Of a DNA stretch of 64,000 nt, positions 2,450 to 21,000 are shown one piece after another. Numbering within the stretch: the stretch's first letter is position 1; each line of letters starts with the position of its first letter. The position numbers and the translations under genes were made by a program. Under the pieces are notes generated by a model that saw only the letters and a list, made by a program, of their open reading frames with translations, searched no databases and was not told where the DNA came from. Source of the stretch: Odontesthes bonariensis (taxonomy: Eukaryota > Chordata > Actinopteri > Atheriniformes > Atherinopsidae); NCBI RefSeq assembly GCF_027942865.1, contig NC_134526.1:22177784-22241783 (forward strand), read 5' to 3'.

Positions 2450-5400
2450 CATTTTGAGCCTGCTGATGACAATTTTTGGTTCCATGTGCAACGCGTGCTT
2501 CTCAGGGGTTGAAGTGATCAATTTTCGGTGACTCTCTGAAAAAGAAGTGTGATGTTTTACTAGGGGTGGGCGATATGTATCGTTTGCGAAGTTATCGTGA
2601 ATGTTGTTTTGACGATGAGTAATTTTGCAATATCGAGATATAGGCAAAAAAAAAAAAAAAAAATTGTTTTTTTTGTTTTTTTTTTCAATCGCCAAAAATC
2701 AATAAAGTGCGGCGCCAGTGGTCCTCTGCCCTTACCACGCCCTGCTTTGAACGCTCTAATTTTTTCAAAGTAAACGCTTCGGACCCAGCGGGACACTCAG
2801 CTAAGAGCATCGAGGGGGGGCCGAGAGGCCGGGGCTGGGACAGCGAGAGGCCGGGGCTGGGACAGCGAGAGGCCGGGGCTGGGACAGCGAGAGGCCGGTG
2901 CTGGGACAGCGAGAGGCCGGGGCTGGGACAGCGAGAGGCCGGGGCTGGGACAGCGATAGGCAGGGGCTGGGACAGACGGCAGCTCGCCTCGCGGCGGACC
3001 GTCAGCTCGATCCCGAGATCCAACTACAAGCTTTTTAACTGCAGCAACTTTAAGATACGCTATTGGAGCTGGAATTACCGCGGCTGCTGGCACCAGACTT
3101 GCCCTTCAATTGATCCCCGTTAAAGGATTTAAAGTGTCCTGTATTGTTATTTTTCGTCACTACCTCCCCGAGTCGGGAGTGGGTAATTTGCGCGCCTGCT
3201 GCCTTCCTTGGATGTGGTAGCCGTTTCTCAGGCTCCCTCTCCGGAGGGAGAAGTAGCCTGAGAAACGGCTCGAGGTTATCAGTCACCAAAGCGGCCGCGG
3301 CACCCCGAGAGGCACCCGCATGGGTTTTGGGTCTGATAAATGCACGCATCCCCGAAGGTCAGCTCGTTTTGCATGTATTAGCTCTAGAATTGCCACAGTT
3401 ATCCAAGTAACGGTAGAGCGATCAAAGGAACCATAACTGATTTAATGAGCCATTCGCAGTTTCACTGTACCGGCCGTGTGTGCTTAGACTTGCATGCTTA
3501 TGTTCATTTTATTGTGATCTTAACGCAAGTTTGATTATTTTTTAAATATCGTCAAAATATCTTTATCGTGAAAATCCTAAAAAATATCGAGATATTTTTT
3601 TTTGCCCATATCGCCCACCCCTATGTTTTACGCACCCTCGGATCAAACACTAAAATCCTAAAATGCAAACATGAACTTTGGCAATAACTTTCCTTCGGAC
3701 AATTACTCCTGAAGAAAATATCACCTTTGATAAGACTTTGGTCTTCAGGGTTATCTGCGTCAGGGGGCGCGTACTCATCTCCCGTTTCCCCCTCTTCCAG
3801 CTGATCCTCTTCCTCGTAACTCTCAGGATGTCCCGAGTCTACCGCCTCTCCTTTATTTCCATCCTCGACCCTCTCCGTCTCCTCCTCCCGTGTCTCCGGT
3901 AGCTGTTCTTCTCTGCTTGGAAGACAGTCATCATCTTGAACGTCCTCGGTTCCCTCTGCAGACTGTTCGTCTGACTCTCCTATAGGGATAGAAACGTGCG
4001 CATGCTCAATGGTTTCATAGATCTTCTGGTTTAAGTCACGGCTTGAAGAAAGTGCAGACAAACCTCCAGAGAGATCATCTGACTCGTAGTTCAATGGCAG
4101 GGGTTTGTTCTGTTGCAAGAATATAGAATAAATATTCAGCATCGCTGGAGGAGTTGCTTTGTGAAATCCTGCAGTATTTTGACCCTCGGTTACCTTCGCA
4201 GTGTTGTTTCTTCTCCTTCTGTATCCCTTTGTGGACAGGTGCCCTTGCTGTGATTGGGTAGGTTGACAGTTTATTAGTTGGAGCAGGATTTTCTGGGGAA
4301 AAAAGTGCATTACGAAAAGAAAAAAAAAAAAGAAAAAATCTTACCTCAAGCCAGAACTGTAGAGGTTTGTTTTCATAGAGAATAGTGGCTTTCCATTTTT
4401 TAGTCGAGCCTTTCCCCGCAAACTCCTCAAAGGCAGGCGGCGTAAATAAGACGCCTTTACACTTAATACACTCCTTACCTAAACCAGAAATCCACACCAC
4501 GTATGGTAACAGAAACGGGAGGATTAGCAAAACTGGGTTAAGTCACCACCTGGATTTGACTAAGCAAGTAGGTAAGAGCCTCTCATTGGACAATTACTGC
4601 ACTAACGGTCACATTTCAGCTGGCAACAAGTTAGTTTACCCTAACTGATGCGGTGAGTAGCTTCTCATTTCCTAAACAACCGTGTCGTAAGACGCATCCT
4701 GTGGTTGTGGAAAAGAAGAGTCAAATTATTGACAAATTATACTCCTATTGGGTTAACGCATTGTTAAAAACTGGAAGGATAGTGGGGAACCATCATCTTC
4801 GAGGAAGCAATGTGGTCAGAAAAAACATCTTGAATGATTGTGATTGGTCATCACTTAAGCATTTGGTGAAATCAAATCGGAAAAAAACAACAGTAGAACT
4901 CGAGTAACAGTGAAAGTGAGAGCATCTCCACACGCACAATGCAGAGGGAACTCAAAGATTGGGACTAAAGACCTTAAAAACTTAAGAAAAGACTTGTCAG
5001 CGAGGCTAAAAGGCTTCAATTTGCTTGGGAGCACGAAGATCGGACTCTGGAGCAATGGATGAAGCTCATGTGGTCTGATGAGTCCAGATTTACTCTGTTC
5101 CAGAGTGATGGGCGCATCAGGGTAAGAAGAGAGGTGGATGAAGTGATGCACCCATCATGCCCGGTGCCTACCGTACAAGCCTGTGGGGGCAGTGCTATGA
5201 TCTGGGGTTGCTGCAGTTGGTTAGGTCCATGTTCAGCAACGTTATGTGCCCAAAAGATGAGGTCAGCTGACTTCCTGAATATACTGAATGACCAGGTTAA
5301 TCTTTCCTCCCTGATGGCACGGCCATATTCCAAGATGACAATGCCCGGAGTCATGGGGCTCAAATTGTGAAAGAGGGGTTCAGGGAGCGTGAGACATCGA

Positions 5401-8116: not shown

Positions 8117-8553
8117 CAGGGGCGATTTTAGGATCTGGTCTTTAGGGGTGCCCAGCCCCCAGTGCTCACAGAGGCACATTATTTCTCACTAATTGAAGCG
8201 AACTAGTACATTTATAAATTTTGGAGCCGTATTAGTTTTGCTTTGAGTAGTGTTTTCCCCTACAACATTCAATTTTGACCTCTTCATTTCAAAAGACTGT
8301 GGCTTGACAGGGATAACAGAGAGCCTGAGACAAATATTGAAGATAACTCAACATTTATTTTGGGAGTAAAGAGTTAAAACAAAAACAAATGCTAGAAAAT
8401 AAATAAAATGGTCACTAAAATAATGCATCCTAGAGCAAAAAAAAAAGTGTTTTTGCATAATATAATATTTTAAAAATGTGCTGAGCCAGGGGGTGCCGAG
8501 CTACCTCACGGTGGTGCCTTGGCACCACTAAAAATACCCTAGGCTCGCCCCTG
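8117..8553. mobile_element. hAT-type MITE (437 bp)
   Basis: The termini CAGGGGCGATTTTAGG and CCCTAGGCTCGCCCCTG are imperfect inverted repeats. A perfect 8-bp target duplication GTGGCGCC flanks it at 8109-8116 and 8554-8561. The interior is AT-rich without coding capacity. The copy looks fairly intact. Confidence 0.88.
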
Positions 8554-10028: not shown

Positions 10029-10978
10029 TCAGGCTTGCTTTGAAAGCCATGGTATTTTTCTTAGCAAAGATGGAGACGTCTTCAAGAGCATCGCGATCCA
10101 AATGACTGTTCCTGCTAACAGGTATTCTGCTGGAACTCTTAGAGCCCCGCCTATCAGGAGAACCACCAATAAGACAGACAGGAAAACTTTCAGAAGCTTG
10201 TTATTACTGATCTCCCTCTCTGCAGCCTTTCTTGCGTTGTCCTCCTCATTTCTCCACAGCACTTTCATCTTCATCGCAAGCTCCTCCCCCTGGAAATGCT
10301 TTTTAAAGTCATCCTCCTTCTTGCTGATGGAGGCGCTTCTCTCTGCCAGGATGCTGTCCTGTCTTTCCCTGACCTTCCGCTCTTCTTTGGGATACAGCTG
10401 CGAGTGGTAGTGACCGCCTCCGTTCAGAGCCACCAGGGTCTCCATCTTCTCCATCAAACGCGTCACCTGTGCCTGGTCCTCGGGGTTTTTGTTGTTGAAG
10501 ACATGGAAGCCGCCGCTGCACCTGCGTATGAAGGCGCGGAGGTTGTCGTCACTCTCACTAATGACGTCGTTTATTGTTTTCCCTTCCAGGCGATCGCCGT
10601 GGGTGAAGAGCACGATGGTGTAGTCCCACACGCTGGGGCCGAACTTGGCCTCGATCAGTGTGTTGGTGTCTTGGTCTTCCTGCGTCATCCTTCCCAAAGG
10701 AATGACGAACACGAAAACATGAGGGCCTGGCTCCTGGAGCTTCACACGCTTAAGAATCTCCCTGACGATTTCCTCCTTGTTGCGGTCTTTCTCAAAAAGT
10801 CCAGGTGTATCGATGACAGTGACAGGCCTATCCTCGACCTTCCCCTCCTCCTTTTCACAGTAGATGGTGACTCTTTTGAGCCTCATGTCCGATTTGAACA
10901 CCACTTTGTTGAGGATTGTGTTCCCACTTGAGCTTTTGCCTGCTCCGCTTTTCCCAAGGAGCATGATCCTCAGAGGCT
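10029..10978 (-). CDS. GIMAP/AIG1-family GTPase, main coding exon
   Basis: The exon begins after an intronic TTTATTCGCAG at 10979 and ends in TGA at 10029 (about 316 codons). It opens with PLRIMLLGKSGAGKSSSGNT, containing the P-loop (G1), followed by a VIDTPGLF G3 motif and a VLFTHGDRL segment near the G4 position. The family-specific AIG1 block and a charged helical region (ERKVRERQDSILAERSASIS) follow. The C-terminus has two hydrophobic segments (LLKVFLSVLLVVLLIGGAL and LLAGTVIWIAMLL), suggesting membrane anchoring as in some GIMAPs. The family comprises GTP-binding scaffolds of lymphocyte survival and immunity, expanded in fish. The large exon carrying the GTPase domain is normal for GIMAP genes. 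A short 5' exon supplying the start codon must lie upstream (above 10978) but was not identified. The frame continues past the acceptor to 11051, but that part is intronic. Confidence 0.9.
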
Positions 10979-11130
10979 CTGCGAATAAACAAATGACAAA
11001 TAAATGCAGCATAAATCGCCAAAATGTTACGGCGGCGCAAGTACGAAACAACCGCTAGGAAGAGCTCGGTCCAAAGACAGAAAATAGACTGGAAGGGTAA
11101 GAAAAGAGAGAGGGAAACTACGAGGAAATG

Positions 11131-18000: not shown

Positions 18001-21000
18001 AGAGAAAAATGCGCCAATCACAAAAAACGACCGGAGTACATGCGCTGCAAACTTCAAAACACATGCAAGACAGAAAAACACAACGGAAGTTCACCAAGCC
18101 ACTAGGGGGTCTCGACCTGTTTGGGATAGGCCCTATCCTAAAGGGGATCGCCTATGGGAGATCGACCATAGTAACGAAGGAGAAGAAATTCAAAAGGTAC
18201 GTTGTCCTTTATGTCTTTATGCCAAATGTTTAAAAAAGACATAAAGGACAACGTACCTTTATACTTTCTTCTCCTTCGTTACTTCTCCGATCTCCCATAG
18301 TCGATCCCCTTTCCCAAAGGTGAAGACCCCTTAGTGGCCTGGCGAACTTCCAATGAGTTTTCAGTGAACTTGCAGCATGTTTCTCTCTTGCATGTTTTGA
18401 ATTTTGCAGCGTGTTTCTTTCTTGCATGTGTTTTGAAGTTTGCAGCGCGTTTCTTTCTTGCATGTGTTTTGAAGTTTGCAGCGCGTTTCTTTCTTGCATG
18501 TGTTTTGAAGTTTGCAGCGCGTTTCTTTCTTGCATGTTTTGAAGTTTGCAGCGCGTTTCTTTCTTGCATGTGTTTTGAAGTTTGTAGCGCGTTTCTTTCT
18601 TGCATGTGTTTTGAAGTTTGAAGCGCGTTTCTTTCTTGCATGTTTTGAAGTTTGCTGCGCGTTTCTTTTTTGCACGTTTTGAAGTTTGTAGCGCGTTTCT
18701 TTCTTGCATGTTTTGAAGTTTGCTGCGCGTTTCTTTCTTGCATGTGTTTTGAAGTTTGCTGCGCGTTTCTTTCTTGCATGTGTTTTGAAGTTTGCAGCGC
18801 GTTTCTTTCTTGCATGTGTTTTGAAGTTTGCAGCGCGTTTCTTTCTTGCATGTTTTGAAGTTTGCAGCGCGTTTCTTTCTTGCATGTGTTTTGAAGTTTG
18901 CTGCACGTTTCTTTCTTGCATGTGTTTTGAAGTTTGCAGCGCGTTTCTTTCTTGCATGTTTTGAAGTTTGCAGCGCGTTTCTTTCTTGCATGTGTTTTGA
19001 AGTTTGCTGCGCGTTTCTTTCTTGCATGTGTTTTGAAGTTTGCAGCGCGTTTCTTTCTTGCATGTTTTGAAGTTTGCAGCGCGTTTCTTTCTTGCATGTG
19101 TTTTGAAGTTTGCAGCGCGTTTCTTTCTTGCATGTTTTGAAGTTTGCAGCGCGTTTCTTTCTTGCATGTGTTTTGAAGTTTGCAGCGCGTTTCTTTCTTG
19201 CATGTTTTGAAGTTTGCAGCGCGTTTCTTTCTTGCATGTGTTTTGAAGTTTGCAGCGCGTTTCTTTCTTGCATGTTTTGAAGTTTGCAGCGCGTTTCTTT
19301 CTTGCATGTGTTTTGAAGTTTGTAGCGCGTTTCTTTCTTGCATGTGTTTTGAAGTTTGAAGCGCGTTTCTTTCTTGCATGTTTTGAAGTTTGCTGCGCGT
19401 TTCTTTTTTGCACGTTTTGAAGTTTGTAGCGCGTTTCTTTCTTGCATGTTTTGAAGTTTGCTGCGCGTTTCTTTCTTGCATGTGTTTTGAAGTTTGCAGC
19501 GCGTTTCTTTCTTGCATGTGTTTTGAAGTTTGCAGCGCGTTTCTTTCTTGCATGTTTTGAAGTTTGCAGCGCGTTTCTTTCTTGCATGTGTTTTGAAGTT
19601 TGCTGCACGTTTCTTTCTTGCATGTGTTTTGAAGTTTGCAGCGCGTTTCTTTCTTGCATGTTTTGAAGTTTGCAGCGCGTTTCTTTCTTGCATGTGTTTT
19701 GAAGTTTGCTGCGCGTTTCTTTCTTGCATGTGTTTTGAAGTTTGCAGCGCGTTTCTTTCTTGCATGTTTTGAAGTTTGCAGCGCGTTTCTTTCTTGCATG
19801 TGTTTTGAAGTTTGCAGCGCGTTTCTTTCTTGCATGTTTTGAAGTTTGCAGCGCGTTTCTTTCTTGCATGTGTTTTGAAGTTTGCAGCGCGTTTCTTTCT
19901 TGCATGTTTTGAAGTTTGCAGCGCGTTTCTTTCTTGCATGTGTTTTGAAGTTTGCAGCGCGTTTCTTTCTTGCATGTGTTTTGAAGTTTGCAGCGCGTTT
20001 CTTTCTTGCATGTGTTTTGAAGTTTGCAGCGCGTTTCTTTCTTGCATGTGTTTTGAAGTTTGCAGCGCGTTTCTTTCTTGCATGTGTTTTGAATTTTGCA
20101 GCGCGTTTTTTCCTTGCATGTGTTTTGAATTTTGCAGCGCGTTTCTTTCTTGCTTGTGTTTTGAATTTTGCAGCGCGTTTTTTCCTTGCATGTGTTTTGA
20201 ATTTTGCGGGTCGGACACGAGTCCAAAACGTTTCTCTGAAAGTCTTCTCTGAAACACGCTAAAAAAACACCTCTAGGGAGTGTATAAACATTTTTGGGCA
20301 AGTTTTTTTTTCCAATTTTTATTTTTCCAGTTTCCATTAAACATTTTTCATTCGCAACCTCCGAATGATAATTAGAAAAGGCAATGAAAACCTGGTTATT
20401 AGGGTAGTCCAACTTAAATCTGACTTAAAATACCTGCGTACATGTTGGTCAAAAGTTAAATTAATCCTGCGGGTATGTTCAGTGGGGCTTAAACTGGGCC
20501 TCTGTGCATGCTCCACGCCATGCATCTGATTTTTAACCCCCGAAAAGAAGAAGTAAAAAAAAATGTAATAAAAATGTAATAAATGAACAGAGCTTTATGT
20601 CCGATTATAGCTGCTTAAGGTGGTATTAGTTTGTCACCAGTATAATGCCAGTTGTTTTTGTCTTGGCACAATGGGTCAACATGGAAAAAAAAGCCAGATA
20701 CCAATAAACTATAATAGTGGAGTTGAACATACTATTATCAATAAATCAGTAAACTTGTTCCTGCACTTCCACACAGGGGCGAGAATAAACTGAACAGGTA
20801 AACCTCCCTGCATGTACCTGCATAAACAAACTTTAAACTGATGGATTTTCAAATGGTAAAACAACAGTAAATAACCAAACATCATTTTAGAATATTATTT
20901 ATTTTCTCATGCATATGAAATCACCTGTGTTTTCTTTTTTTGGAGGAGAGGGGGTGCTTTAACATTAAGTGGGCTGGGTTTTAGAATTAATTTGTACACG

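Follow-up and report, generated by a model that had tools for sequence, protein, structure and literature searches.

The element in the window and its ribosomal interior

The window, by which we mean the whole stretch of 64,000 nucleotides analysed here (Odontesthes bonariensis, contig NC_134526.1), contains at positions 2561–3623 an element bounded by 17-bp inverted repeats (2561–2577 and 3607–3623, 100% complementary) and flanked by the 8-bp duplication TGTTTTAC at 2553–2560 and 3624–3631. A first-pass annotation made from the sequence alone had described these perfect repeats and the perfect duplication, together with an inverted 18S rRNA core of about 760 bp at 2741–3500, and our alignments bear it out on all three points, the core coordinates being exact with respect to the native gene. 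The features are as follows, with the evidence in brackets.

2553–2560, no strand: left 8-bp target-site duplication TGTTTTAC (sequence and flank comparison of copies)
2561–2577, plus strand: 17-bp terminal inverted repeat of the left end (found 477 times in exact form in the assembly, control 0)
2561–2740, plus strand: left hAT arm, 180 bp, from the transposase-bearing parent (common to the 18S-less sisters L092 and L095 and to L112)
2741–3500, minus strand: captured 18S rRNA gene fragment, antisense, native nt 44–801, with two internal losses (Rfam and native alignment)
2822–2975, minus strand: 22-bp minisatellite, 7 copies, from one 18S V4 unit (tandem array and copy comparison)
3137–3138, minus strand: site of a 31-bp 18S deletion, also in the family consensus (alignments; position from the sequence)
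3219–3270, minus strand: fold-back hairpin replacing about 115 nt of 18S (junction not in native L113 and L115)
3501–3623, plus strand: right hAT arm, 123 bp (common to L092 and L095, L111 and L112)
3607–3623, minus strand: right terminal inverted repeat, 17 bp (complement to the left one)
3624–3631, no strand: right 8-bp target-site duplication TGTTTTAC (flank comparison of copies)

The 17-mer of the terminal inverted repeats (TIRs) occurs 477 times in the assembly and its reversed control not once, so that chance can be excluded as its source. Elsewhere in the window we noted a 1.8-kb tandem array of about 52 copies of a 36-bp unit (18370–20207) and, on the minus strand, a reading frame that contains an AIG1 (GIMAP-type) domain (10032–11051, E 4.3e-57).

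The Rfam model SSU_rRNA_eukarya matches the minus strand of the element with 306.3 bits (E 8.3e-89). As native reference we used L113, the 5' half of an 18S gene located at a contig end of the same assembly, and alignment to it places the core at element positions 181–940, that is window 2741–3500, corresponding to native nt 44–801. A cmscan of 2680–3010 alone gave no match, which we do not count against the 18S identity because this stretch has little 18S beyond the expanded V4. Between the family consensus and L113 the two main alignment blocks, of 403 columns with 32 gaps and 238 columns with 5 gaps, show 3 and 2 substitutions, respectively, and at several bases both agree with each other and are unlike the 18S reference. 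A joint alignment of four sequences, in which the fold-back columns are counted too, shows 14 differences from L113 over 621 aligned sites for the family, 16 over 676 for L102 and 21 over 739 for L114 (two further copies considered below).

The fold-back at 3219–3270, which the first-pass annotation does not mention, has 24-bp arms that are 92% complementary, and the segment 3205–3285 folds with –43.3 kcal/mol (z –6.05). At this place the family consensus has lost about 115 nt of 18S and carries instead an inverted copy of neighbouring 18S, a junction absent from the native 18S copies L113 and L115. A mir-8364 match to the fold-back was rejected as a hairpin look-alike, its score being 32.5 against a gathering threshold of 67.

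Regarding the native-type sequences, L115 (C34:20200–21100) is an 18S unit in which the 18S ends near nt 420 and passes into spacer-like sequence, and 18S matches ending at the same place are found on contigs C33, C34, C8 and C122 (with the best 40 of 195 candidates scored). This suggests that small contigs hold repeated, internally deleted rDNA units, L115 being the one of them that was read. The same search gave uninterrupted 18S matches at C14:19968597 and C25:18649669 (again with the best 40 of 195 candidates scored), which may belong either to native genes or to elements.

A dispersed family with distinct target sites

Searching the host assembly (945,434,557 bases in 187 contigs) with the whole element returned 155 matches with the best 40 of 241 candidates scored, and with the left arm alone 59 matches with the best 40 of 183 scored. 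The fold-back junction, allowing up to 3 mismatches, gave 62 + 75 = 137 matches, compared to 0 + 0 for the reversed controls; some of these may be fragments or duplicates, and any number of copies beyond those examined is an extrapolation. The copies examined were chosen because they resemble the window element, its left arm or the fold-back junction: 59 from the two DNA searches, making up with the window the first 60, and 20 more from the junction matches.

All of the first 60 copies carry the 18S core, with coverages of 0.64–1.00. For 40 of them this is partly a matter of choice, the query having held 18S, while the other 20 (L050–L069) came from the left-arm query without it; a core confined to the window copy, which would have spoken against a mobile chimera, is thus contradicted. 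Perfect 8-bp duplications flank 50 of the first 60 (49 of them distinct), and among the 20 from the junction matches both ends could be placed by alignment in 16 and a perfect duplication was found in 14. Overall, including the window, 64 of 80 copies have perfect duplications of the length seen in hAT elements, 63 of them distinct, and the remaining 16 have a one-base mismatch (4), lack an end (4) or differ more (8). Both ends are present in 76 of 80, a count that includes L075 and L079, in which one projected end is not TIR-like. The short TIRs, perfect over 17 bp in the window, occur in other copies too, and an end has been lost or altered in a few of them (e.g., L023, L028, L075, and L079). 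Copy length has a median of 952.5 bp and ranges from 730 to 2773 bp (76 copies).

Joining the flanks of 68 insertions yielded, within the sequence collected, an empty paralogue running uninterrupted across the junction in seven cases. One of them lies in the window itself, where 8202–8553 is a 96% paralogue of the insertion locus of L069. The corresponding 8 bp of the empty paralogue equal one copy of the duplication in five cases, and they differ by two bases for L061 and by one base for L069. Ac-like hATs prefer the target nTnnnnAn, and the distinct 8-mers of the first 60 copies show T at position 2 in 23 of 49 and A at position 7 in 27 of 49, a bias and not a fixed motif. Dispersed copies with different duplications were what the first-pass annotation proposed to look for in the genome, and these, along with the seven empty sites, support its suggestion that the chimera moved as a unit after capture.

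Could the copies have arisen without transposition of this unit? A practically negligible probability attaches to their being ordinary 18S pseudogenes, produced by rDNA recombination or retroposition and adjoined by hAT ends through coincidence. Such an origin can point to the truncated native-type 18S of L115 on a small contig and to the similar truncated matches on others, but the 18S is enclosed by the same arms, junctions and ends in one copy after another, perfect 8-bp duplications flank 64 of 80, and the whole unit is missing from the seven empty sites. Segmental duplication of a few insertions is also extremely unlikely to account for most copies. It may have played a part in the pairs L059/L063, with a common upstream flank, and L033/L036, which share the duplication and 12 bases on each side; however, there are 63 distinct 8-mers among the 64 perfect duplications, and a single pair among the first 60 copies shares the 20-bp upstream stretch compared.

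The copies differ little from the family consensus. Their distance from it has a median of 1.5% in the right-hand 653 bp and of 1.9% in the left-hand 256 bp (58 of 60 copies, L027 and L057 being excluded for absence of the anchors), and by this low divergence the spread is recent. A tree of 72 of the 80 copies is star-like and weakly resolved, with 3 of 69 inner branches reaching a support of at least 95. The 22-bp array at 2822–2975, also unmentioned by the first-pass annotation, has 7 copies in the window, is one unit long in 35 of the 72 copies and reaches elsewhere up to about 84 units, as judged by length; on the weakly resolved tree a minimum of 19 changes between single and multiple units is needed. 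Since the single unit is native V4 sequence, the minisatellite most likely grew after the capture, and many times.

Two other observations concern the distribution of these sequences. L101 (C4:42628852–42632123) is an 18S element whose TIRs lie 2.7 kb apart and which contains a further BED-finger fragment, maybe through nested insertion. A scan of viral contigs with a TIR-based pattern gave two loci (L001 and L002), both being rejected as a short match inside other, probably phage, DNA (L002 was seen in part); with an 18S V4 pattern the same scan gave 0 matches.

hAT parentage and the capture of the 18S fragment

From 100 listed of the 477 TIR places we retrieved 14 sets of paired or linked ends, together with 6 unpaired ones. 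The former contain 18S in 12 of 14 cases, and the unpaired ends L104–L107 and L109 gave no 18S match. The two pairs without 18S, L092 and L095, have arms that match the family consensus at 1–184 and about 818–939 with 84–94% identity and carry, where the family has 18S, a BED zinc-finger remnant (zf-BED in L092, E 6.2e-8). Searched against the genome, this remnant gave 150 matches with 150 of 1259 candidates scored, from which three regions were taken up, L110, L111 and L112. L112 measures 3,245 bp between two exact TIRs, includes hAT coding sequence and has arms 87% and 90% identical to those of the family; its frames are broken by stops and its flanks lack a matching duplication. L111 has the right TIR and the sequence of both arms, the left TIR being absent, and encodes one ORF of 367 aa with zf-BED (E 7.7e-6) and another of 393 aa with Dimer_Tnp_hAT (E 1.6e-22), the latter also matching Hermes transposase in the PDB (E about 1e-12). 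L110 likewise retains the right TIR and lacks the left. No intact autonomous partner was found among these three regions. The hAT kinship proposed in the first-pass annotation is confirmed by relatives with the same ends that bear transposase sequence (L111 and L112).

A different hAT, L108, has a Dimer_Tnp_hAT frame at 3387–4565 and the same TIR 17-mer at 5082. It was rejected as a parent, given that its arms do not match the family except in an A/T run; from its sequence, cross-mobilisation between hATs of this type and the family is conceivable.

Two copies, L102 and L114, have the junctions of the family and an 18S piece (nt 49–803 in the reference numbering) that lacks both the fold-back and the 31-bp deletion. 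A 68-bp deletion is private to L102, whose flanks have 7 and not 8 bp in common; L114 shows a gap of 10 nt and one recognisable TIR only. At one junction there is a short filler and at the other one or two shared bases. A T at native nt 238, present alike in the family, L102 and L114, was rejected as a derived mark of a single capture, as the native L115 has T too. The junctions themselves seem to indicate a single capture, because they are the same in the family, L102 and L114. Two or more independent captures of 18S into the same hAT ends would explain why the arms of L102 and L114 are TA-rich where the burst family has A/T runs and why most changes in their 18S pieces are private. We nevertheless consider repeated capture very unlikely: the two junctions are identical among the three forms down to the filler bases, save for a single C/T difference, and the arm difference is confined to a low-complexity stretch. 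The filler, the shared bases and the fold-back would suit repair synthesis with template switching.

Taking together the family, its ends and duplications, the empty sites, the parent-type element, the 18S-less sisters and the copies without the fold-back, all of them read from the sequence, we put at roughly 0.93 the probability that the window copy belongs to a non-autonomous hAT family whose interior was captured from the host 18S rRNA gene and which went through a recent burst. The probable course of events would begin with a hAT element some 3.2 kb long that encoded a BED/hAT transposase and lost its coding interior, and with 18S rDNA, about nt 44–801, ending up in antisense between the left and right arms. 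Both the capture and the fold-back could have been produced when a broken hAT donor was repaired by synthesis with template switching. In one lineage the captured 18S would have undergone the fold-back rearrangement and the 31-bp deletion, and the recent burst with its 8-bp duplications may then have been driven by a hAT transposase that acted in trans on the ends still present. Afterwards the 22-bp V4 segment would have expanded to a minisatellite in individual copies.

Relation to known elements and consequences for rDNA

MITEs are usually under about 600–800 bp. The family resembles them in being TIR-bounded, multicopy (137 junction matches), devoid of transposase, its interior being 18S, and related to a longer element (the parent-type L112), but its median length of 952.5 bp exceeds their strict size, so that of the name hAT MITE given by the first-pass annotation the hAT origin stands and non-autonomous hAT element is better than MITE. 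With other elements of this kind it has in common the 17-bp TIRs, the 8-bp duplications and the same-ended relatives with BED/hAT transposase; where hAT MITEs have anonymous DNA or what is left of a transposase, the interior of the family is rRNA gene sequence. DNA transposons are known to capture genes, and Pack-TYPE elements such as Pack-MULEs hold host gene fragments inside DNA transposons. The family conforms to such transduplication, with a fragment of the native 18S gene between its ends and dispersed copies in which it has spread as a unit. Dispersal of rRNA-related sequence by a mobile element is also seen in rRNA-derived SINEs such as SINE3, which are retroposed, have no TIRs and make duplications of variable length, whereas the family has TIRs and fixed 8-bp duplications and is thus not a SINE.

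Among described systems, Turmoil-1 of C. elegans is likewise a DNA transposon with host gene fragments, yet its transduplication concerns protein-coding fragments taken into inverted repeats (PMC2572040), whereas here an rRNA piece forms the interior of a hAT family. Pokey of Daphnia is another DNA transposon tied to rDNA and with MITE relatives (PMC4912750, PMC3315735); it inserts into rDNA, whereas here the rDNA is inside the transposon, and our 63 distinct 8-bp sites argue against a single Pokey-like rDNA target site. In the titles and abstract beginnings of the literature matches listed, we found neither an 18S-bearing hAT element nor a hAT family with rRNA as its main cargo; the family may have been catalogued before in Repbase Reports, Dfam or subscription papers.

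The spread of 18S outside the rDNA arrays had been expected to confound rDNA probes, metabarcoding and copy-number estimates, and primer sites allow this to be narrowed down. Of 11 primers compared to the family consensus with up to 2 substitutions, EK-82F, SSU_R22, Euk516r (with 1 mismatch) and two V4 primers of forward direction keep a site, and no site was found for either of the two V4 reverse primers or for either V9 primer tried. The risk would concern the V1–V3 region, in which amplicons and rDNA copy-number probes could be misled by the dispersed 18S look-alikes, and would be much narrower for the standard V4 and V9 amplicons.

The main cargo of this amplified DNA transposon family is a fragment of an rRNA gene and not of a protein gene. 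The same genome keeps the parent-type element, the cargo-less sisters, the copies preceding the rearrangement and the burst form, a natural series for the capture of DNA by transposons and for the birth of a minisatellite inside a mobile element. An additional idea, to which we give a small probability, is that the 18S cargo is not inert: the dispersed copies, more than a hundred with nearly identical 18S and a strong fold-back, could provoke gene conversion or ectopic recombination involving the rDNA arrays, or yield hairpin RNAs that pair with 18S rRNA; the element may also owe part of its spread to the captured piece. If this were true, recombination with the dispersed copies could help rDNA loci to move between chromosomes.
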